Part shown: positions 4,681-27,080 of the stretch, piece after piece
Numbering within the stretch: the first letter of the stretch is position 1
Layout of the letters: each line of letters starts with the position of its first letter
NCBI RefSeq assembly: GCF_000518785.1
Contig: NZ_JAEG01000001.1
Span: 558,001 to 622,000 of the forward strand
Direction: 5' to 3'
DNA: 64,000 nt
Source: Paenirhizobium selenitireducens ATCC BAA-1503
GTDB taxonomy: Bacteria; Pseudomonadota; Alphaproteobacteria; Rhizobiales; Rhizobiaceae
Program-made: the position numbers and the translations under genes
The notes under the pieces: generated by a model
The model's input: only the letters and a program-made list of their open reading frames with translations
What the model was told of the DNA's origin: nothing
Databases searched by the model: none

Positions 4681-6582
4681 ATGAAGACGGGCGGAAATTT
4701 GCGGGCGCGCTTGCGCTATGAGTTCGACAAGAGCATGGCCGGCGGCGCCGTGGCGCTGATAGGCTGGCTGGCATTGATATCGCTGGTGGTGATTTCACTT
4801 GCCGGCGCGTTTCTCGCGATCACCGGCATCGCGCCGGAGGGCGGCGAGCCCGTCAGCTTCATCGAGGGCACCTGGGAATCGCTGATGCGCACCTTCGACG
4901 CCGGCACCATGGGCGGCGACCAGGGCTGGGGCTTCCGCCTCGTGGCACTCGTCGTGACGCTCGCCGGCATCTTCGTCTTCTCCGCCTTGATCGGCGTCAT
5001 CAGCTCCGGCCTTGAGAGCAAGCTCGACGAACTGCGCAAGGGCCGCTCGCGGGTTCTCGAATCCGACCACACGATCATCCTCAACTGGTCTTCCTCGATC
5101 TTCGACGTGATTTCCGAACTGGTGATCGCCAACCAGAGCCGCCGCCGTCCGCGCATCGTCATCATGGCGAACAAGGACAAGGTCGAGATGGAAGACGAGA
5201 TCGCCACCAAGGTGGCCGACCTCAAGAACACCAAGATCGTCTGCCGCAGCGGCAACCCGACCGATCTCTACGACCTCGACATCGTCAATCCGCAGAACTC
5301 CCGCTCGATCATAGTGCTGTCGCCGGAAGACGAGGACCCGGATTCGCAGGTCATCAAGTCGGTGCTCGCCCTGGTCAACGACCCGAAGCGCCGCCCGCAG
5401 CCGTACATGATCGCCGCCGAAATCCGCGATGCCGGCAATGCCGACGTCGCCCGCATCGTCGGCGGCAAGGAAATGCAGATGGTGCTGGCCGACGACCTGA
5501 TCTCCCGCATCGTCGTCCACACCAGCCGGCAGTCCGGCCTGTCGGCGGTCTATTCCGAACTGCTCGATTTCGACGGCTGCGAGATCTACACGATCGAACA
5601 GCCGGCGCTGGAGGGCAAGCCGTTTGCCGCCGGCGTCATGGCCTATGAGAACTGTACCCTGATCGGCCTGTGCGACCGCAACGGCAAGATCCACATCAAC
5701 CCGGCCCCGAACCGCGTCATCGAGCCGGGCGAGCGCGCCGTGATCATCGCCGAGGACGACGACTCGATCCGCACCTGGAGCAACGAGATCAATCTCGCCA
5801 AGGACGCGATCCTGACGCCGGTCAAGCGCCCGGTGGGTCCGGAGCGCACCCTGGTGCTCGGCTGGAACCGCCGCGGCCCGATCATCGCGACCGAGCTCTG
5901 CCGCTACGTCACGCCGGGCTCGCATCTGACGATCGCCGCCGACACGCCGGAATTCGAGGCGGATATCGCCGGTCTTCGACTGCCGAACGGCAACATGACG
6001 ATCGAGCACCATGTGATCGACACCAGCAGCCGCGCCGCCCTCGATCGCCTGAACATCCCGAGCTTCGACCACGTTCTGGTGCTCGGCTACAGCGACGACA
6101 TGACGATGCAGTCGGCCGACACCCGCACCCTGATCACCCTCCTGCACATCCGCAAGATCGCCGAGGGCGCCGGCCTGCACATCAATGTCGTCAGCGAGAT
6201 GACCGACGTGCGCAACCGGGAGCTGGCGGAAGTCACCCGCGCCGACGACTTCGTCGTCAGCAACAAGCTGGTCAGCTTGATGCTGGCCCAGGCCTCCGAA
6301 AACGAGTTCATGGCGGCGATCTTCGCCGAACTGCTCGACGAGGACGGCTCGGAAATCTACATGCGCCCGATCAGCGACTATGTGGCGATCGATCGCCCGG
6401 TGAACTTCTTCACCATCGCGCTCGCCGCACTCCGTCGCGGCGAGATCGCCATCGGCTATCGCCGCCAGCGCGGCGACGACGCCGACCACCGTAATCTCGG
6501 CGGCGTCACGGTCAACCCGTCCCGCTCGGAAATGCTGATCTACAGCCCGGAAGACATGGTCATCGTGCTGGCTACCGAATAG
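4681..6582 (+). CDS. CASTOR/POLLUX-like putative ion channel with RCK/TrkA-N domains
   Basis: This 633-residue protein belongs to the bacterial branch of the plant CASTOR/POLLUX(DMI1) channel family. TM1 spans about residues 22-48. A pore-like loop FDAGTMGGD (72-80) recalls the D-A-G of the plant selectivity filter, and TM2 spans about 84-108. The rest is cytosolic and contains two Rossmann-like RCK halves: the first opens with HTIILNWSSSIFDVISEL, the second with RTLVLGWNRRGPIIATEL. Plant homologues gate nuclear ion flux in symbiosis, but bacterial members are uncharacterised and ion selectivity here is unknown. It is monocistronic, has its own terminator and is convergent with the aminotransferase gene. 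Confidence 0.87.
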   Translation: MKTGGNLRARLRYEFDKSMAGGAVALIGWLALISLVVISLAGAFLAITGIAPEGGEPVSFIEGTWESLMRTFDAGTMGGDQGWGFRLVALVVTLAGIFVFSALIGVISSGLESKLDELRKGRSRVLESDHTIILNWSSSIFDVISELVIANQSRRRPRIVIMANKDKVEMEDEIATKVADLKNTKIVCRSGNPTDLYDLDIVNPQNSRSIIVLSPEDEDPDSQVIKSVLALVNDPKRRPQPYMIAAEIRDAGNADVARIVGGKEMQMVLADDLISRIVVHTSRQSGLSAVYSELLDFDGCEIYTIEQPALEGKPFAAGVMAYENCTLIGLCDRNGKIHINPAPNRVIEPGERAVIIAEDDDSIRTWSNEINLAKDAILTPVKRPVGPERTLVLGWNRRGPIIATELCRYVTPGSHLTIAADTPEFEADIAGLRLPNGNMTIEHHVIDTSSRAALDRLNIPSFDHVLVLGYSDDMTMQSADTRTLITLLHIRKIAEGAGLHINVVSEMTDVRNRELAEVTRADDFVVSNKLVSLMLAQASENEFMAAIFAELLDEDGSEIYMRPISDYVAIDRPVNFFTIALAALRRGEIAIGYRRQRGDDADHRNLGGVTVNPSRSEMLIYSPEDMVIVLATE

Positions 6583-6616
6583 GGAACGCACGTCCCAACG
6601 CAGGACAGGGAATTGA

Positions 6617-6651
6617 AAAGGGGTCCGCCGCGCGATGCGACGGACCCCTTT
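6617..6651. terminator. Bidirectional rho-independent terminator
   Basis: AAAGGGGTCCG (6617-6627) pairs perfectly with CGGACCCCTTT (6641-6651) around a 13-nt loop. The A-rich left flank gives TTTTC on the minus strand and the right arm ends in TTT on the plus strand. It lies between two convergent genes, the CASTOR-like channel and the aminotransferase, and can serve both. Confidence 0.85.
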
Positions 6652-6682
6652 CTCATAGTCGGTGGAGGAGTGCCGGCGACCG

Positions 6683-7906
6683 TCAGGCGGCGGCTGCCAT
6701 GGCCCCACCGATCAGCCGGCCGAGGCGCTTGATGCCTTCGTCGATCATCTGCTCGTTGGCGCAGGAGAAGGAGAGACGCAGCGTGTTGGTGCCCGACCGG
6801 TCGGCGAAGAAAGCCTGGCCCGGAACGAAGGCAACCTTCTCGGTCTCGACCGAGCGCGCCAAAAGCTCCGCGCCGTCCAGCCCTTCCGGCAGCGTCACCC
6901 AGATGAACATGCCGCCTTCCGGCTTGGTCCAGGTGGTGCCGGCCGGCATGTAGGTGGCGAGCGCCTTCAGCATGGCATCGCGGCGCGCGCTGTAGGCGGC
7001 GCGGATCTTGGCGACCTGCGCATCGAAATGCCGTTCCGCGACATGGGCGATGGCGATCTGGTTGATCGACGAGGAATGCAGGTCCGCGGCCTGCTTCATC
7101 AGCACCAGCTTGCGGATGACCGGCATGTTCGCGACGACGAAGCCGACGCGCAGGCCGGGTGCGAGCGTCTTGGAGAAGCTGCCGCAATAGATGGTGCGCG
7201 TATCCTCGATCGAGCCCTTCTCGGCGATTTCGAGCGCCAGGATCGGCGGCACCGCCTCGCCGTCATAGCGCAGCGACTGGTAGGCCGCGTCCTCGATGAT
7301 GGCGATGTCAAGTTCCTCGGCGAGCTTCAGCAGCCGTTCGCGCGTGGCCCGGTCGACAGTCTCGCCGGTCGGATTGCAGAAATCGGCAGACAGATAGGCG
7401 AACTTGACCTCGCCGCCGAGGTTTTCGGCGGTCGCCTTGTAGCTTTCCGGTGTCCGGTTGCCGAGCGTCAGCTGGTCGTAGTTCGGCTCATAGGCGTTGA
7501 AGGCCTGAAGCGCGCCGAGATAGGTCGGCCAGCTGACCAGCGCCGTATCCTTGGGCGACAGGAACAGCTTGCCGAGATAGTCGAGTGCCTGCTGCGAGCC
7601 CGAGGTGATGAAGATGTTGTCGGCCGTGCAGGCGACGCCGATCTTCTCCATCTCGCCCTTCAGCCATTCGCGCAGCGGCTTGTAGCCCTCGCTGACCGAA
7701 TACTGCAGCGCGGCCGTCACCTGGTCGCCGCTGAAGATGTCGGCATAGGCCGCCTTGAATTCCTGGTCGGGAAAGAGTGCCGGGTCGGGAATGCCGCCGG
7801 CAAAGGAGATGATGTCCGGCCGTTCCAGAAGCTTCAGCAGCTCGCGGATTTCGGAAGCGCGCATGCGCGACGAGCGCGTCGCAAAGATATGGTCCCAATT
7901 CAGCAC
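6683..7906 (-). CDS. PLP-dependent aminotransferase, class I (2-aminoadipate/LysN-like)
   Basis: A 407-residue fold-type I aminotransferase. I see the CNPTG substrate/PLP motif, the IIEDAAY aspartate that contacts the PLP ring nitrogen, and the Schiff-base lysine in GSFSKTLAPGLRVG (about residue 246). The opening NWDHIFATRSSRMRASEIRE and FAGGIPDPALFP are typical of the MocR-derived, GntR-less 2-aminoadipate/aromatic aminotransferase group. I place the start at the GTG at 7906 because GAGGAAA lies 6-8 nt upstream; the ATG at 7948 would add a poorly conserved hydrophobic leader. Exact substrates cannot be read from sequence. Confidence 0.85.
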   Translation of the reverse strand: MLNWDHIFATRSSRMRASEIRELLKLLERPDIISFAGGIPDPALFPDQEFKAAYADIFSGDQVTAALQYSVSEGYKPLREWLKGEMEKIGVACTADNIFITSGSQQALDYLGKLFLSPKDTALVSWPTYLGALQAFNAYEPNYDQLTLGNRTPESYKATAENLGGEVKFAYLSADFCNPTGETVDRATRERLLKLAEELDIAIIEDAAYQSLRYDGEAVPPILALEIAEKGSIEDTRTIYCGSFSKTLAPGLRVGFVVANMPVIRKLVLMKQAADLHSSSINQIAIAHVAERHFDAQVAKIRAAYSARRDAMLKALATYMPAGTTWTKPEGGMFIWVTLPEGLDGAELLARSVETEKVAFVPGQAFFADRSGTNTLRLSFSCANEQMIDEGIKRLGRLIGGAMAAAA

Positions 7907-8182
7907 AGGGGTTTCCTCGTAGTTTTTTATGATGATGAAAAGGACCACATAAAAGGCGATATGTCAACAATGCTGACCTATCATGCTTCGCAAGATTTTG
8001 CATGTTTGGTCTGGCTTGGCCGAAATTATCGTACGCCAGATACAGGCCCTGCGCACGATTCGACTTAAAGGGGACTCACGTAACGTAAAGTGGAGACACA
8101 AGTGCCAGAACCCCGGCGCAGAAAGGATTTGCTTAAACATTCTGCATTAGCGTGACGCCATACAAAACAGAGCATTGGCCTG

Positions 8183-9391
8183 ATGTCGGTTCCATTTCAT
8201 TACCTCCTCCAGTCCGCGGTCGGCCGGGAATACGGATCCGATCGCCATGGCTGGTCGATGCTCGATGATCTTTTCGACATGTGGCCACACGTGACGGCGG
8301 CGATCGCCATTCTTCTGACGGCGCTGAACACCTACCTGTTGGGCGATCCGCAATATCTCGGATGGTGCGTGCTGGCGCTCGCGGTGCAGTTGGTCGCCAG
8401 GGCCATTGCCAAGCTGGCCTATCGACGGCGCGACCTCGCCGACACGCTCGACCGCTGGCTGCTGGTCTTCTGGTTCACCGCCTCAGGCTCCGGCCTCCTG
8501 TGGGGCCTGTCTCTCAGCCTGCTGCTGATCGATGCGACGCCGGATGCACGCGTCACCATCCTCACCGTCGGCTGCGTCATGGTGCAATCGGCCTCCGCGC
8601 GGGCCTACATGGCGCCGCTTCCCGCCCTCACGCAATCAGGCCTCATGCTCGCCATGCTGCTCGGCGTCACGGTGGCGCACGGCGATCTGCTGATCGTGCC
8701 GATCTGCGTTCTCTTCGTGCTGTTCCAGATCGCCTATATCCGCCGGCTGATCCAGCTCCGGCTGGCGCAGATGCAGGCGGAAAGCGAAAAGAACACACTG
8801 CTGAACCAGCTGGAGAGGACGAACTCCGAACTCAAGCTCGCCAATGAGCGCCTGGCGCGGCACGCCCTGACCGATGGGCTGACCGGGCTGCCGAACCGCC
8901 GGCATTTCGACCGCAGCCTGTCCGAGATGCTGGCCCGCGCCACGCGACGCCGTCAGTCTTTCTCGCTGGTGCTGATCGACGTCGACCAGTTCAAGCGCTT
9001 CAACGACACCCATGGCCACCTGGCCGGTGACGGATGCCTTGCGGCCGTCGGCAAGGCCATGGCGCAAACCATCCGCGGGACGGATGTGATCGCCCGTTAC
9101 GGCGGCGAGGAATTCGCCCTGCTGCTGCCGGAGACCGGCAAGGACGCAGCCCGCGCACTGACGGAGAACCTCAGACGGGCCATAGCCGCCGTCGACCTGT
9201 CGCACCTGCCCGGCAGTCCGGCCTCGGTGACTGCAAGCCTTGGCATCGCCAGCAAGTCTGCCGACGAAATCACCAGCGCCGAGCAGCTGATCGCCTGCGC
9301 CGACGAAGCACTCTATGCCGCCAAGCACGAAGGCCGGGACTGCGTTCGCCATGCCGACGATCTCCCGCGCGAGACGACCCTGCGCGCCTGA
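8183..9391 (+). CDS. Membrane-bound diguanylate cyclase (GGDEF)
   Basis: A 402-residue protein with about five or six N-terminal transmembrane helices (residues 36-185), a short coiled coil (195-225) and a C-terminal GGDEF domain that makes cyclic di-GMP from two GTP. The active site is GGEEF (307-311), and the nucleotide-binding DxLTGLPNRR is at 231-240. An intact inhibitory I-site R298-G-T-D301 lies five residues before the active site, so product inhibition is expected. The N-terminal membrane region is not a MASE type I can name. No strong ribosome site is visible; 8183 is the longest sensible start. Confidence 0.88.
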   Translation: MSVPFHYLLQSAVGREYGSDRHGWSMLDDLFDMWPHVTAAIAILLTALNTYLLGDPQYLGWCVLALAVQLVARAIAKLAYRRRDLADTLDRWLLVFWFTASGSGLLWGLSLSLLLIDATPDARVTILTVGCVMVQSASARAYMAPLPALTQSGLMLAMLLGVTVAHGDLLIVPICVLFVLFQIAYIRRLIQLRLAQMQAESEKNTLLNQLERTNSELKLANERLARHALTDGLTGLPNRRHFDRSLSEMLARATRRRQSFSLVLIDVDQFKRFNDTHGHLAGDGCLAAVGKAMAQTIRGTDVIARYGGEEFALLLPETGKDAARALTENLRRAIAAVDLSHLPGSPASVTASLGIASKSADEITSAEQLIACADEALYAAKHEGRDCVRHADDLPRETTLRA

Positions 9392-9460
9392 CCGCCCTGC
9401 CGACTGCGCTGGCGCTGGTTCCCCCGCCTTTGGGCCAATTGAGCACCCTCTCCAGACAAT

Positions 9461-9488
9461 GAAAAATCCCCGGCTCGTCACCGGGGAT
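9461..9488 (-). terminator. Rho-independent terminator of ilvC
   Basis: On the minus strand ATCCCCGG (9481-9488) loops over TGACGAG to CCGGGGAT (9466-9473) and is followed by TTTTTC. It lies 41 bp beyond the ilvC stop codon and is an 8-bp perfect GC-rich stem. Confidence 0.85.
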
Positions 9489-9528
9489 CTTCTGATTGCG
9501 GTCGCCGTAGCGCTAAAGCGGATCTGCC

Positions 9529-11267
<1,739 letters not shown>

Positions 11268-21723: not shown

Positions 21724-22650
21724 TCAGCCCGACCGTCCAAGGGTTTGCGACGGCGTCTCCCCATAGAGCTCGGCATAGTAGGCTGAGAACCGCCCGAGAT
21801 GCCAGAAGCCCCATTTCATCGCCACCTCGGAAACCCCGACGCCGGAGCCTCTCAGGGCCAGCAGTTCGCGCCGCGCGCCGTCCAGCCGCCTCTGCCGCAA
21901 CCAGGCTCCCGGACCAATCCCGACCGTCTCGACGAAGGCGAACCGCAGGAGTTCGGCCGGCACCGCGAGCCGCTTGGCCAGCGCCGTAACCGACATCGGT
22001 TCGTTGGGCTGATCCTCGACGATCTCGCGGGCTCGCCGGTAAAGGGCATAGTCATGTATCGACGGCGTCCTGCCAGTGCCCTCGCGCCGCATGATGGCCG
22101 CATAGAGAAAGCTCAGCTTGTCGCAGATCAGCTCCGGCAGAAAGCGGGCAAGATCGTCGCCGGGACAGCCCGCCTCGGTTGCAAAGGCCGCCATCAGCGT
22201 GAGGAACCAGCCCATCACCGCTTCCGCCTCGGGAAGCTTCTGCGCCGTCGTCACCGAGCTCTGCGGCGCGGCCATGTCGCCGAGCTTGGCCGCATCCACC
22301 ATGGTGATCAGCACGTCGCTTCCCTCGTCCAGCGCGGCATGCACCTCATGCCCGCCCTTGAGTACGGAAACCTCTGAGGAACCGAGCGAAACGGCGTTGA
22401 CGCGCCAGGCGTTGCGCTGTGCCAGCGAATGCAGGAAGACAAGGCTTCCCTCCGGCGGACAGGTGGCCTCCTCGACCGCGACATCGACCCGTTCGCGCGA
22501 GATCGACACCCCGTCGAACTGCAGCGTCTGCAAGGCGCCCTGGTAGCGACCTGGCCGCAACTGCGAGTAGCGTTGGCTCCAGCCGGCGAGACCGCCTTCC
22601 TGTTCGGAGGCGTCGGCAAAAAGGGCATTGGTTACGCGAAACTCGGACAT
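21724..22650 (-). CDS. AraC family transcriptional regulator
   Basis: A 308-residue protein with a C-terminal AraC/XylS DNA-binding domain. The two helix-turn-helix units are visible in MSVTALAKRLAVPAELLRFAFVETVG and in the final MKWGFWHLGRFSAYYAELYGETP. The N-terminal 200 residues are a sensing domain of the type found in regulators of amine and aromatic catabolism. It is divergent from the TTQ amine dehydrogenase operon, with a 167-bp gap, and is its likely activator, probably responding to the amine substrate. The ATG at 22650 (MSEFRVTN) is preferred over 22704. Confidence 0.85.
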   Translation of the reverse strand: MSEFRVTNALFADASEQEGGLAGWSQRYSQLRPGRYQGALQTLQFDGVSISRERVDVAVEEATCPPEGSLVFLHSLAQRNAWRVNAVSLGSSEVSVLKGGHEVHAALDEGSDVLITMVDAAKLGDMAAPQSSVTTAQKLPEAEAVMGWFLTLMAAFATEAGCPGDDLARFLPELICDKLSFLYAAIMRREGTGRTPSIHDYALYRRAREIVEDQPNEPMSVTALAKRLAVPAELLRFAFVETVGIGPGAWLRQRRLDGARRELLALRGSGVGVSEVAMKWGFWHLGRFSAYYAELYGETPSQTLGRSG

Positions 22651-22817: not shown

Positions 22818-23963
22818 GTGGCAACGCTGAGCCGACTAGCCCTGGGCGCCCTGTGCGCCGCCGCAACCCTCCCCGCATTTGCCCATGCTGAGGAGTTCAC
22901 GCCCGAAACCGTGACGCTGAAGGAAACCATCGATCCCGGCCCGAATGTCTTCGTCTATCAGCAGGAACTGAAGGGCGCCGGCTCGATCGCCGTGTTCAGC
23001 AAGGACGACCTCGCCTTCAAGGGCTTCATGACCGCCGGCGTCATGGGCCAGATGCTGATCGGCGCCGACGGCAAGACCGCCTACGGCCAGTCCAACTACA
23101 TGAAGCGCCTGACGCACGGCCCCAATGAACAGGTCCTCGAGATCTACGACATCGCCAAGCTCTCGGCGACGCGCGAAGTGATCCTGCCGCCCAAGGCGAC
23201 CCAGGCGCTCGGCTACGTGCCGATGCTGCAGCAGACGGCGACCGGCAAGTTCCTGCTCGTGCAGAACGCGACGCCGGCCACCTCGGTCACCATCGTCGAC
23301 CTCGCCGCAGGTGCCGTGACCGAGGAAATCCCGACACCGGGCTGCTACGGCATCTATCCGTCCGCCTCCGGTGACAAGTTCGCAACCGCCTGCGGCGACG
23401 GCACCTTCGTCAGCTTCACGCTCGGCGCGGACGGCAAGATGGCGGAGAAGCTCGCCGGGGAAAAGGCCTTCGACGTGGATGCCGATCCGGTCTTCATCAC
23501 CGCCGCCCCCTATGACGGCGGCTATGTCTTCGTCACCTATGGCGGCAAGGCGATCGTGCTGAAGGACGCCGACGGCCCGCTGAAGACGGTCGAGACCATC
23601 GCCCTCAACGACGGCATCGAAGGCAATTGGGCGCCGGGCGGCTATGAACTGGTTGCCGTCAATGCCAAGACCGGCGTGCTGTTCATCACCATGCATCCGG
23701 ACGCCAAGGACGGCAGCCACAAGGCCGCCGCACACGAAATCTGGGCCTATGACCTGAAGGCCAAGAAGCTGCTGTCGCGTTCGCCCGTCGAGCACATCGT
23801 CTCGATCGCGGTGAGCCCGGACGACAAGCCCGTCCTGTTCGGCACGACCGAGACTGGCTCGCTGCTGCGCTTCGAAACCGATCCGGCCGCAGGATATGCA
23901 CTGAAAGCCGCCGGCGAAGCCGGTCTCACCGGCTTCCCGCTCGTCGTACAGGTGGTCGAATGA
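22818..23963 (+). CDS. mauB: Amine dehydrogenase large (heavy) subunit, TTQ-dependent
   Basis: A 381-residue exported protein with a signal peptide ending AHA (about residue 24). The mature part is the seven-bladed beta-propeller heavy chain of methylamine/aromatic amine dehydrogenase, with blade motifs such as VFVYQQELKGAGSIAVFSKDDL, GQMLIGADGKTAYG, TPGCYGIYPSASGDKFATACGDG and WAPGGYELVAVNAKTGVLFITMHPDAKDGSHKAAAHEIWAYDL. It scaffolds the TTQ-bearing small subunit in an alpha2-beta2 periplasmic enzyme that oxidises primary amines to aldehydes and ammonia. The start is GTG, with GGAGACC 8 nt upstream. First gene of the operon; it overlaps mauE by 4 nt. Small-subunit features suggest the aromatic amine (Aau) branch. 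Confidence 0.9.
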   Translation: MATLSRLALGALCAAATLPAFAHAEEFTPETVTLKETIDPGPNVFVYQQELKGAGSIAVFSKDDLAFKGFMTAGVMGQMLIGADGKTAYGQSNYMKRLTHGPNEQVLEIYDIAKLSATREVILPPKATQALGYVPMLQQTATGKFLLVQNATPATSVTIVDLAAGAVTEEIPTPGCYGIYPSASGDKFATACGDGTFVSFTLGADGKMAEKLAGEKAFDVDADPVFITAAPYDGGYVFVTYGGKAIVLKDADGPLKTVETIALNDGIEGNWAPGGYELVAVNAKTGVLFITMHPDAKDGSHKAAAHEIWAYDLKAKKLLSRSPVEHIVSIAVSPDDKPVLFGTTETGSLLRFETDPAAGYALKAAGEAGLTGFPLVVQVVE

Positions 23964-24493
23964 CTGAGCCCCTCGTCCCGCCGCTGGTCGCGGCCACCGC
24001 AACGGTCTTCATGGCACTGCTCTTTGCCCGCGCGGCCCTGCACAAGGTGTTCGATTTCACCGCCTTCACCGGCTTCCTCGCGGACTATGAACTCGTGCCC
24101 GAAAGCGCCGTGCGGCCCGTCGCGATCCTCGTCGCCCTCGCCGAACTGGCAGTGATCCTGACGGCGATCGTCCCGGCGCTGCATGTTGTCAGCGCCGTGC
24201 TCGCGGCCGGCCTGCTGCTTGGCTATGCCACCGCCATGGCGATCAACCTCAGGCGTGGCCGCGACCGCATCGAATGCGGCTGCGGCGGCGCGGTCCAGCC
24301 GCTCGCCTGGACGCTGGTCTGGCGCAACGCCGCGCTCGCCGCCTTCGCCCTCGTCGGCGCGGGATCGAGCGCCAGCGGCTTCGGCGTGACCGAGAGCGCC
24401 GCCGTCATCATCGGCGGGCTCACCTTCTTCACCGCCTATCTGCTGGCCGACCAGATCCTGGCCAATGCCGCCTTCATTCGCCTGAAACGCTAA
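23960..24493 (+). CDS. mauE: MauE, amine dehydrogenase maturation membrane protein
   Basis: A 177-residue inner-membrane protein with four or five helices of the DoxX/VKOR-adjacent MauE fold. It shows LLFARAALHKVFDFTAFTGFLADYELVPE and the cysteine pair in RIECGCGG (about residues 110-113). MauE works with MauD in forming or shuffling the six disulfides of the small subunit. It overlaps mauB by 4 nt (ATGA) and is followed by mauD after 26 nt. Confidence 0.92.
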   Translation: MTEPLVPPLVAATATVFMALLFARAALHKVFDFTAFTGFLADYELVPESAVRPVAILVALAELAVILTAIVPALHVVSAVLAAGLLLGYATAMAINLRRGRDRIECGCGGAVQPLAWTLVWRNAALAAFALVGAGSSASGFGVTESAAVIIGGLTFFTAYLLADQILANAAFIRLKR

Positions 24494-24519
24494 CGCCCAA
24501 CCACGGAAAGTACAGTTCG

Positions 24520-25119
24520 ATGAATGTCATGGTTTTTTCTCTGGCCTTGCTCTGGGTGGTCGTCCTCTTTCTGATCGTCGCCCTCTTTGCCCTTTCCCGG
24601 CAGATCGGCATCCTGTTCGAGCGCATCACACCGCTCGGCGCGCTGGTCAACGACAGCGGCCCGAAGGTCGGGGAGCCGACCCCGCTGTTCAAACTGCCGA
24701 GCCTCACCGGCGGCGAGGTATTCGTCGGTCCGCGTCCCGGCCGCTCAACGCTCATCTTCTTCCTCTCGCCCACCTGCCCGATCTGCAAGAAATTGCTGCC
24801 GATCCTGCGCTCGGTGCGGCAGGCGGAAAAGGAATGGATCGACGTGGTGCTCGCCAGCGACGGCGACGTCGAGAAGCACAAGCGCTTCATCCAGAACGCC
24901 GATCTCGCCTCCTTCCCTTACGTGAACTCGACCGAGCTCGGCCTTGCCTACCGCGTCTCGCGCCTGCCCTTCGCGGTCCTGCTCGATGAAAAGGGCATCA
25001 TCCGCTCCAAGGGGCTGATCAACAGCCGCGAACAGCTCGAAAGCCTCTTCAACGCCAAGGAACTCGGCGTCGAGTCCATCCAGGGCTACCTGGACGGCTA
25101 CGCCGCCTCCCGCAGCTGA
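24520..25119 (+). CDS. mauD: MauD, thioredoxin-like amine dehydrogenase accessory protein
   Basis: A 199-residue periplasm-facing protein anchored by one N-terminal helix (residues 4-26). The thioredoxin-like domain has the redox motif CPIC (C86-C89) in LSPTCPICKKLLP and the cis-proline region SRLPFAVLLDEKG. It is needed for correct disulfides in the small subunit. GGAAAG precedes the ATG. It lies between mauE and mauA in the canonical B-E-D-A order. Confidence 0.93.
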   Translation: MNVMVFSLALLWVVVLFLIVALFALSRQIGILFERITPLGALVNDSGPKVGEPTPLFKLPSLTGGEVFVGPRPGRSTLIFFLSPTCPICKKLLPILRSVRQAEKEWIDVVLASDGDVEKHKRFIQNADLASFPYVNSTELGLAYRVSRLPFAVLLDEKGIIRSKGLINSREQLESLFNAKELGVESIQGYLDGYAASRS

Positions 25120-25140
25120 TTTCAGAAAGGAACGAAACCC

Positions 25141-25677
25141 GTGCTCTCTCTCATCGACAAGTTCACCGACTGGATGGACCGCCTGGCCGAAACCGGCAGC
25201 CGCCGCGTGGCCCAGTCGAGCGGCCGCCGCTCCTTCCTCGCCCGCTCCGGCGCAGTCCTGGTCGGCGGTGCCCTGCTCCCGGTCCTGCCGTTTGACCGCA
25301 CCTTTGGCCAGGCAACCGCCTGGGCGGCGGAAGAAGGCGACGCCTCCACCTGCGAATACTGGCGCTACTGCGCGCTGGACGGCAACCTCTGCAATTCCTG
25401 CGGCGGCTCGCTCACCCAGTGCCCGCCCGGCTCGGAAATCTCCAAGGTCTCCTGGGTCGGCACCTGCACCAATCCAATGGACGGCAAGGACTATCTGGTT
25501 TCCTACAACGACTGCTGCGGCAAGGCGATCTGCGACAACAGCCCCTTCTGCAACACCAACGAGCGCGAGCGCCCCGGCTATCGCATGGGCCTGCACAACG
25601 ACATCAACTGGTGCATGGCCAACGCCTCGCAGGGTTATCACTGCACCGTCGCCGCCCTGGTGGGTCTCGCCGAATGA
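25141..25677 (+). CDS. mauA: Amine dehydrogenase small (light) subunit, TTQ precursor
   Basis: A 178-residue precursor with a twin-arginine signal (GRRSFLARSGA, residues 28-38), so it is exported folded. The mature chain has 12 cysteines for six disulfides. W105 (SWVGTC) and W157 (NWCMAN) are the pair oxidised and cross-linked into tryptophan tryptophylquinone, and D124 (SYNDCC) is the catalytic base. NPMDGKDYLVSYNDCCGK, RERPGY, LHNDINWCMAN and LVGLA look closer to aromatic amine dehydrogenase (AauA) than to methylamine dehydrogenase, as I recall those sequences. The start is GTG after AGAAAGGA. Its stop overlaps the next start (ATGA). Confidence 0.93.
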   Translation: MLSLIDKFTDWMDRLAETGSRRVAQSSGRRSFLARSGAVLVGGALLPVLPFDRTFGQATAWAAEEGDASTCEYWRYCALDGNLCNSCGGSLTQCPPGSEISKVSWVGTCTNPMDGKDYLVSYNDCCGKAICDNSPFCNTNERERPGYRMGLHNDINWCMANASQGYHCTVAALVGLAE

Positions 25678-26117
25678 GACTGACTGCCGCAATCATCCTG
25701 CTGGCGGGCCTCGGCTCGCCGGCAGCAGCACTCGCCGAAGACGGAGCCGCCCTGTTCGAGGCCTCCTGTTCCGCCTGCCACCAGTCCGGCGGGATCGGCA
25801 CGCCGGGCATCGCTCCGCCGCTCAACGACCCGGCGCTGTGGCAGCGCCTCGGTGCCAAAGCCCCGGACTATGTCGCGGGCGTCATGATCTCGGGACTTTC
25901 GGGCACCATCACCGCCGGCGGCCAGATGTATGCCGGACTGATCATGCCGTCCCATGCCGCGATCTCCGACGCGGACCTGGCGGCGATCGGCACCTATATC
26001 CTCTCGAAGGTCAACGCGACCGGCCTTGCGCTGGACACGGCCCATCTCGAAGCCGCACGCCAGGCCAAGCCCTCGCATGCCGACCTGCGCAAGCTCCGCA
26101 AGGGATCAACGCAATGA
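25674..26117 (+). CDS. Periplasmic monohaem cytochrome c (amine dehydrogenase operon)
   Basis: A 147-residue class I cytochrome c with a signal peptide (cleaved near LAE, residue 22) and one haem site CSACH followed by QSGGIGTPGIAPPLNDP. The distal methionine is probably in LIMPSHAAISDADL. It overlaps mauA by 4 nt, so expression is coupled. The likely role is to accept electrons from the reduced TTQ enzyme, replacing amicyanin or azurin, neither of which is encoded in this cluster. It has only one CxxCH and is far too short to be the dihaem enzyme MauG. Confidence 0.87.
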   Translation: MRLTAAIILLAGLGSPAAALAEDGAALFEASCSACHQSGGIGTPGIAPPLNDPALWQRLGAKAPDYVAGVMISGLSGTITAGGQMYAGLIMPSHAAISDADLAAIGTYILSKVNATGLALDTAHLEAARQAKPSHADLRKLRKGSTQ

Positions 26118-26590
26118 CGAAACGCCTCGCTCCCGCAATCGCCCTCGCCACCCTGCTCTCGGCCTCGCTCGGGTGGTCGCCCGCCGCCCGTGGCGAGAGC
26201 GCGGGGCCTCTTTCGGCCCGGGCAAACTACATCCTGCGCTGCACCGGTTGTCATGGTCTCGAAGGCGCCGGCAGCGAGATCGGCGGAATCCCCGATTTTC
26301 GCGGCTATGTCGGCGCCTTCTCGCGCACCGAGGACGGCCGCGCCTATCTCATGCATGTGCCCGGCGTGGTGAACTCCAGCCTCACCAATACGGAGATCGC
26401 CGCGGTGATGAACTACGTCATGCAGACCTTCGGCGGAAAATCCCTGCCGGCCGACTTCAAGCCGTTCACGGTGGAGGAAGTCGATGCGTTGCGCACCCAT
26501 CCGGTCGAGGACGTCGTCGCCTACCGTCGCGACGTGGTGAAGGCGCTGACGGCCGCAGGCATCGCCACCGCCGGCTATCCCTGGCCGTAG
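26114..26590 (+). CDS. Second periplasmic monohaem cytochrome c of the operon
   Basis: A 158-residue exported protein with one haem motif RCTGCHG and a longer C-terminal extension than its neighbour (VEEVDALRTHPVEDVVAYRRDVVKAL). A signal peptide ends near ARG (about residue 26). Candidate axial methionines lie in YLMHVPGV and NYVMQTFGG. It overlaps the first cytochrome gene by 4 nt. Two cytochromes in series could pass electrons from the dehydrogenase to the oxidase chain, or this one could assist cofactor biogenesis; the sequence does not decide. Confidence 0.83.
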   Translation: MTKRLAPAIALATLLSASLGWSPAARGESAGPLSARANYILRCTGCHGLEGAGSEIGGIPDFRGYVGAFSRTEDGRAYLMHVPGVVNSSLTNTEIAAVMNYVMQTFGGKSLPADFKPFTVEEVDALRTHPVEDVVAYRRDVVKALTAAGIATAGYPWP

Positions 26591-26623: not shown

Positions 26624-26650
26624 GGGAATAAAACTGCCCCTTGCGATGTC
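26624..26650 (+). promoter_or_regulatory. Candidate ECF sigma promoter before the COG4315 gene
   Basis: GGGAATAAA (26624-26632) resembles the GGAATA-type -35 element of several ECF sigma factors, and GTC (26648-26650) lies 17 nt after GGAATA where the -10 element would be. The next genes include an ECF sigma and anti-sigma pair, so autoregulation is plausible. It is a pattern match only. Confidence 0.4.
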
Positions 26651-26708
26651 CAATGCACAGGCAAGCCCAGAACGGCGCCTGCCGCAAACCTCTTCGGAGA
26701 AGACATCC

Positions 26709-27080
26709 ATGAGAAACCGCATTCTCCTCACCATCGCGCTCGCCGCCTTTGCCGGCTCCGCGCTCGCCGCCCCGGTCAAGACCGTCAAGAGCGACAAGGG
26801 CCAGGTCGTCGCCGCCGACAACGGCATGACCCTCTACACCTTCAAGAACGACAAGAAGGGCGTTTCCAACTGCTATGACGACTGTGCCAAGAACTGGCCG
26901 CCCTTCATCGCCGCTTCCGGCGTCCAGGCCGAAGGTGCATATTCGCTGGTGACCCGCAAGGACGGCGCCATGCAATGGGCCAAGGACGGCAAGCCGCTCT
27001 ACTTCTGGGTCAAGGACATGAAGGAAGGCGACGCCACCGGCGACGGCGTGAAAGGTGTCTGGGATGCCGCAAGGCCCTGA
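26709..27080 (+). CDS. Secreted COG4315-family protein with Yx(FWY)xxD motifs
   Basis: A 123-residue exported protein with a signal peptide ending ALA (residue 20). It has two copies of the family motif, YTFKND (43-48) and YFWVKD (98-103), plus the CYDDCAKNWPP cysteine pair. The family is common in bacteria and is of unknown function, often linked to envelope or oxidative stress. GGAGA precedes the ATG at 26709. It overlaps the following ECF sigma gene by 17 nt, so it probably belongs to the sigma factor's own regulon. Confidence 0.85.
   Translation: MRNRILLTIALAAFAGSALAAPVKTVKSDKGQVVAADNGMTLYTFKNDKKGVSNCYDDCAKNWPPFIAASGVQAEGAYSLVTRKDGAMQWAKDGKPLYFWVKDMKEGDATGDGVKGVWDAARP

Follow-up and report, generated by a model that had tools for sequence, protein, structure and literature searches.

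How is the tryptophan tryptophylquinone (TTQ) cofactor completed in an amine dehydrogenase whose operon carries no mauG? The question is raised by a six-gene operon at 22818-26590 on the plus strand of a 64,000-nucleotide stretch of the Paenirhizobium selenitireducens ATCC BAA-1503 genome (assembly GCF_000518785.1, contig NZ_JAEG01000001.1, positions 558,001 to 622,000), called here the window. Aromatic amine dehydrogenase (aau) clusters lacking MauG are already known, and how TTQ is formed in the MauG-less aromatic amine dehydrogenases has, to our knowledge, been an open question since the description of the aau cluster. A full-text literature search, with most subscription papers outside its scope, found no paper explaining it in aau systems. 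The operon encodes a large subunit (B), MauE-like (E) and MauD-like (D) proteins, a small subunit (A) and two small cytochromes, for which we coin the names c1 and c2. The contrast between these cytochromes is the new element here: across the loci examined, c2 was the one gene besides B, E, D and A that tracked the MauG-less TTQ enzymes, and its haem may, judging by sequence, be open, so that the question becomes a one-gene test. We tentatively propose, at somewhat short of an even chance, a role for c2 as a five-coordinate monohaem enzyme completing TTQ and for c1 as the electron carrier. The role of c2 is proposed because of its exclusivity and its lost loop, and that of c1 because of its Met motif.

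An aromatic amine dehydrogenase operon with two cytochromes

An earlier note on this DNA had described a large subunit-MauE-MauD-small subunit order followed by two monohaem cytochromes, and all six frames were present. They encode an AauB-like large subunit (22818-23963, GTG start; PF06433, E 7e-26), a MauE-like membrane protein (23960-24493; PF07291, E 5e-27), a MauD-like thiol-disulfide protein (24520-25119; TIGR02661, 197.9 bits against a cut-off of 188.6), an AauA-like small subunit (25141-25677, GTG start; PF02975, E 2e-52), c1, a small Met-ligand-type cytochrome c and likely electron carrier (25674-26117), and c2, a loop-deleted cytochrome c and candidate TTQ-forming enzyme (26114-26590). 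The ATGA overlaps of four bases at the B/E, A/c1 and c1/c2 joints suggest translational coupling, and the six genes likely form one operon. Both cytochromes possess a single CxxCH, and are thus monohaem, and in the family profile search they matched PF00034-type profiles only.

The best PDB match of the small subunit was the light chain of aromatic amine dehydrogenase (AADH; E 4e-48), ahead of methylamine dehydrogenase (MADH) chains (2e-41 to 2e-26). The large subunit likewise matched the AADH heavy chain (E 4e-56) better than MADH (7e-25). Against the methylamine dehydrogenase equivalogs both subunits scored below cut-off (large subunit, TIGR02658, 102.3 against 454.45; small subunit, TIGR02659, 158 against 196.85). 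The operon is thus predicted to be of the aau type, in agreement with the earlier reading of the small subunit.

The TTQ precursors Trp105 (codon at 25453-25455) and Trp157 (25609-25611), the presumed catalytic base Asp124 (25510-25512) and Asp80 were the same in all 133 small subunits of the alignment, the truncated L130 being excluded. The window small subunit also had the 12 cysteines previously reported, counted by eye after the signal region. These invariant residues suggest that the enzymes of c2-type clusters carry TTQ. Positions 87 and 131 were each Cys in 98 of the 133 sequences; the equal counts may point to a disulfide lost jointly in part of the family.

Distribution of c2 and of MauG-family genes

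The main set consisted of 86 loci: the best 80 of 338 relatives, the window, a second copy from the same genome and four aau-type plasmid loci. Since one iteration of the hidden Markov model merged c1 and c2, they were assigned by gene order and best hit. We found c2 in 85 of the 86 loci, the sole miss being L003, where the contig ends 309 bases past the small subunit. Cytochrome c1 was found in 64 loci and was absent from 22. It is dispensable, and a fixed pair of cytochromes was rejected; the idea that both jointly take the place of MauG does not hold for c1, which looks like an ordinary electron carrier. Among the 80 related loci, B was found in 79, E in 78 and D in 79. The layout is widespread, and the arrangement is not unusual. 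After shadow frames were set aside by eye, a survey of neighbours left c2 as the only near-universal family besides B, E, D and A.

The second copy is a complete PF02975 operon at C3:367405, with identical layout and its own c2 (L084, G000:C3:358500-377500, where AraC, B, E, D, A, c1 and c2 lie at 5247-10152). It sits downstream of genes resembling a peptide-type ABC transporter, and its small subunit clusters with those of Ciceribacter (L014) and L013.

Two class samples were surveyed, in which at most 10-12 candidates were scored per genome, so that weak extra c2 copies could escape. In the window's class (385 genomes) PF02975 was found in 12 genomes, and strong c2 matches (E up to 6e-30) in those same 12. 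The class of Derxia (369 genomes) had PF02975 in 13, ten of them with strong c2 (E up to 3e-38). The other three were mau-like: G499 and G762 had mauJ beside the small subunit, and G741 had a truncated small subunit whose best match was the mau reference. Over the 754 genomes of both samples, strong c2 occurred in 22, every one of which also had PF02975. The possibility that c2 is a common cytochrome was rejected, as the weak matches outside PF02975 genomes (G082, 3e-9; G717, 2e-12; G484, 2e-9) were not loop-deleted c2. Those of G717 and G484 had a full loop with an MP motif, and that of G082 was by eye a cytochrome of the cbb3-oxidase type.

Among plasmids, c2 was present in 15 of 15 aau-type records and in none of 15 mau-type records (annotated mauA (amicyanin); mostly Paracoccus). 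The other plasmid matches to c2 were eight from Thermus, one from Marinobacter and one from Paracoccus aminophilus. The last, on pAMI4 (L191, ~6001-6356), was an isolated c2, broken into two pieces and lacking any annotated dehydrogenase gene within 6 kb, and is probably a relic. No c2 was found in five mau-type loci (L085, L090, L148, L155 and L156), in each of which every CxxCH frame was read over at least 13 kb, and both cytochromes were absent from the Paracoccus and Methylobacterium mau reference clusters. A cytochrome matched in L155 was rejected as c2, being c1-like with a full loop and Met. In one genome (G361) a c2-type locus coexisted with a separate mau-type locus, the latter carrying mauF, mauJ and a dihaem gene. 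Within 5 kb of the small subunit, L148, L155 and L156 also had a frame with about seven CxxCH motifs (a multihaem cytochrome). In L050 and L060, a minus-strand frame with four close CxxCH motifs, ~4.8 kb upstream of the small subunit, may encode a small multihaem protein or be a shadow frame that arose by chance.

None of mauF, G, C, J, M and N had a match within 9 kb of the small subunit around the window (mauL was not sought), in line with the reported lack of MauG and amicyanin in the cluster, and the 80 related loci gave no match either within the reach of their contigs. The whole-genome search for MauG/CcpA-type genes that had been proposed was run on the 4.98 Mb assembly (29 contigs, 99.8% complete). 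It returned a single PF03150 match, on C21, a contig other than those of the two operons. This gene was a canonical cytochrome c peroxidase (CcpA), with 1zzh as best PDB match (E 7e-149) and MauG at best at 6e-23, and adjoins a frame that by eye resembles rpoC. A hidden mauG was rejected, since the sole PF03150 match was this CcpA. The genome has one PF00127 cupredoxin, on C10, near neither operon.

PF03150 was also sought in 45 of the genomes behind the 80 loci and in 23 further PF02975 genomes from the two class samples. No match was found in 24 of the 65 genomes with a c2-type locus (17 and 7 from the two sets). Completeness was given for six of the 24, and G054, G188, G278 and G316 were listed as 100% complete. 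All four genomes with a mau-type locus, one of which also had a c2-type locus, had at least one match. A CcpA-like frame was found near one of the 80 loci (L074). Provided that TTQ is present, the 24 genomes make it unlikely that a MauG-family enzyme is a general TTQ requirement in c2-type clusters. The earlier suggestion that a distant gene completes TTQ is weakened by the same count.

An unrooted tree of 73 rows placed c2 and a divergent variant of it on one side, and c1 and two ordinary Met-motif cytochromes on the other, of a branch with support 100/99. In the small-subunit tree, which had 113 rows, 117 columns, weak resolution and an unknown root, the mau rows and L130 formed one branch (100/99) within a well-supported group including the c2-type L098, L102 and L103. 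This tree was built without L026, L039, L041 and L088, which were missed by the motif cut. L130 was labelled c2 by default, yet it grouped with mau and showed no c2. The position of the mau branch is consistent with one exchange between c2 and the MauG set, in either direction.

Upstream of the window operon, a divergent AraC-type regulator lies on the minus strand at 21724-22650 (PF12833, E 5e-18). Its frame was listed to 22704 from a TTG, and the likely start is an ATG at 22650. It is plausible as the predicted amine sensor; an AraC-type gene was nearby in 40 of the 80 related loci, not always divergent. Directly 3′ of c2, at 26646-27080, is a gene for a secreted repeat protein (PF03640, E 1e-32), followed by frames assigned by eye as sigma-factor-like and then anti-sigma-like. 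Among the compared loci, a PF03640 gene near the operon was matched only in L002 and the window.

The haem pocket of c2

The two cytochromes differed at the loop that carries the Met ligand. In c1 this loop had 37-39 residues in 63 of 63 sequences, each with a Met in the last 22 residues. The presumed sixth haem ligand of c1, Met91-Pro92 (codons at 25944-25949), was invariant in 36 aligned sequences and aligned with the MPP motif of a Ralstonia nitrite reductase haem domain. Cytochrome c1 is likely a class I cytochrome c with a normal Met ligand and an ordinary electron carrier.

In c2 the haem motif CTGCH (residues 43-47, 26240-26254) was conserved as CxGCH in 85 of 85 sequences. The equivalent of the c1 loop, between the conserved Y/F78 and A96, had 19 residues in 83 of 84 sequences and 20 in one (counts excluding L080, cut by a contig end; L003 has no c2 count), so that the Met-ligand loop is shortened by about 18 residues. 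At the trimmed loop stands HVPG (residues 81-84, 26354-26365), with V in 81, P in 83 and G in 84 of 85 sequences. Position 81 was H, Q, R, N, K or S in 84 of 85, and may mark a polar distal residue.

The best profile match of c2 was Thermus thermophilus cytochrome c552 (E 4e-22). An AlphaFold2 model (mean predicted local distance difference test score, pLDDT, 90.3) had 1dt1 as its nearest fold (VIA Z 11.6, 107 residues, root-mean-square deviation 2.4). In the sequence alignment, c2 had no counterpart of c552 residues ~52-66 (2fwl numbering). Met69, the haem ligand of 1c52, aligned to a variable c2 column (V 28, M 14, N 9, I 8, others; n=85). No Met, His or Lys column was conserved on the distal side of c2 (n=85), and 13 of 84 sequences had no Met, His or Lys at all at positions 79-90. 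From these alignments we infer a five-coordinate c2 haem with an open iron site.

Formation of TTQ and comparison with known systems

In the mau family, MauE and MauD act in disulfide formation in the small subunit, and their counterparts here would help to form the small-subunit disulfides in the periplasm. Cytochrome c2 would then fill the role that MauG has in mau systems. In its c-haem, predicted to have lost the sixth (Met) ligand, the iron would be free to bind peroxide, and once oxidised the haem would draw on W105 and W157 in the folded precursor for electrons, so that these are hydroxylated and cross-linked to TTQ. When mature, the enzyme would oxidise amines and pass the electrons to c1 where it is present, and otherwise to another carrier. 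Both the peroxidase-like chemistry of c2 and its action on the small subunit are predictions from sequence. The earlier proposal that one of the cytochromes forms TTQ is thus narrowed to c2 as the candidate, its role being a predicted one. A wider proposal, possible and yet distinctly doubtful, is that c2 is a monohaem TTQ synthase: a class I cytochrome c minus the Met-ligand loop, five-coordinate and peroxide-using, that would serve most TTQ dehydrogenases in nature, the dihaem MauG having taken its place later, in the methylamine clade. In loci that have c1, the two cytochromes may together correspond to the six- and five-coordinate haems of a split MauG. If c2 does complete TTQ, MauG would be the odd one out, and the chemistry, modification of a protein by six electrons with one small cytochrome, would be new.

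Several observations weigh against an enzymatic c2. We know of no precedent for a monohaem enzyme doing six-electron chemistry. Possible iron ligands occur in part of the family, with M80 in 42 of 85 and H81 in 44 of 85 sequences, and a Met between positions 82 and 90 in 19 of 84. Extra large and small subunit copies without E, D or c2 were found at L093, L122 and L133, the full set being elsewhere in the genome. A PF03150 gene is present in 41 of the 65 c2-type genomes. In the family of Derxia (74 genomes), 17 matches included seven loci with c2 adjacent, one with a divergent c2 adjacent (G856, L174/L190, where c1 and the divergent c2 lie directly 3′ of the small subunit) and one where the contig ends (L169). 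The remaining eight, of Alcaligenaceae type, had no c2 beside the small subunit, and a divergent c2 lay ~7.5-11 kb downstream (in G857 visible only in the longer stretch L188). Dihaem CcpA-like frames follow the divergent c2 in seven of these eight loci and could act on TTQ there. The divergent form shares the short loop (hhalign probability 97% to c2, one compared), and in some of its members RVP is changed to RMP, so that the Val of VPG gives way to Met, a possible ligand. The chemistry of MauG itself involves two haems and a bis-Fe(IV) state (PMC6405878).

The Alcaligenaceae-type loci L177-L184 and L186-L190 shared further genes: the aau operon was followed by a set that by eye was DUF1329-like, outer-membrane-like and RND transporter genes, then by the divergent c2 and dihaem CcpA-like genes. 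In L188 a frame resembling a pyrroloquinoline quinone (PQQ) dehydrogenase precedes the divergent c2, and the second dihaem gene of G868 is broken across two frames. This gene set is possibly a separate TTQ route or related to the use of bulky amines.

The strongest rival, although in our judgement unlikely, makes c2 an electron acceptor or docking cytochrome dedicated to the dehydrogenase and unusual in its haem coordination, TTQ being made by something else. The co-occurrence of c2 with the operon fits such an acceptor equally well, and, as mau clusters gain amicyanin as well as MauG, the exchange of c2 is silent on its job. A small cytochrome encoded next to a periplasmic dehydrogenase usually accepts electrons, c2 occurs without c1 in 22 of the 86 loci, and c552, its nearest fold, is an electron-transfer cytochrome. 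Set against this, the Met-ligand loop is gone in all 84 sequences with no conserved sixth ligand in its place, which would be odd for a carrier, and a c1 with a normal Met motif is available in the other 64 loci.

That TTQ arises spontaneously once the disulfides are made, or through a general oxidant or unlinked enzyme, with c2 in a side role such as peroxide removal, is improbable. The genomes without PF03150 do indicate that the MauG family is not generally needed, and the three extra B-A copies have no adjoining c2, though their genomes hold one elsewhere. However, c2 is strictly linked to the MauG-less TTQ genes and was absent from the mau-type loci examined, which suggests a specific need, and TTQ formation in the mau system depends on MauG (PMC6405878). 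Completion of TTQ in trans by the genome's CcpA-type dihaem peroxidase on C21 is very improbable. Such a gene is present here and in many c2-type genomes, but it is a canonical CcpA on a different contig from either operon, and the 24 comparable genomes have no such match.

A dedicated maturase for a protein-derived quinone, as proposed for c2, has a parallel in quinohaemoprotein amine dehydrogenase, whose tryptophylquinone is made with the maturase QhpG (PMC7876137). That system differs in its cofactor, cysteine tryptophylquinone (CTQ), and in its maturase, a cytoplasmic flavoprotein; a gene of that kind was not noticed next to the operon, where no family search was aimed at one. The likeness of c2 to MauG consists of the c-haem and the proposed completion of TTQ only, as c2 has one haem, no PF03150 match and a Thermus c552-like fold. 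With T. thermophilus c552 (1c52, 1dt1), c2 has in common the fold and the C-terminal extension, and differs in the missing ~52-66 segment and the replaced Met69. The mau cluster of Paracoccus denitrificans (L085) shares the B-E-D-A core and the TTQ residues. Unlike the window operon, in which none of them was matched, it has F, C (amicyanin), J, G, M and N, the last two annotated NapG and NapH.

The closest known system is the aau cluster of Alcaligenes faecalis (PDB 2agl, 2i0r), whose AADH chains were the best match of both subunits. Alcaligenes was looked for among 74 genomes of the family of Derxia, and no match from it was found, the best identity being 69%. The A. faecalis cluster presumably has the order B-E-D-A, no MauG and a monohaem cytochrome gene, orf-2, after aauA. 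It would thus have one cytochrome gene against two here, and orf-2 could be either a c1 or a c2. Chistoserdov is said to have described in 2001 this aau cluster with the orf-2 cytochrome and without mauFGLMN, and Hothi reportedly obtained in 2005 active recombinant AADH in P. denitrificans from aauBEDA together with orf-2.

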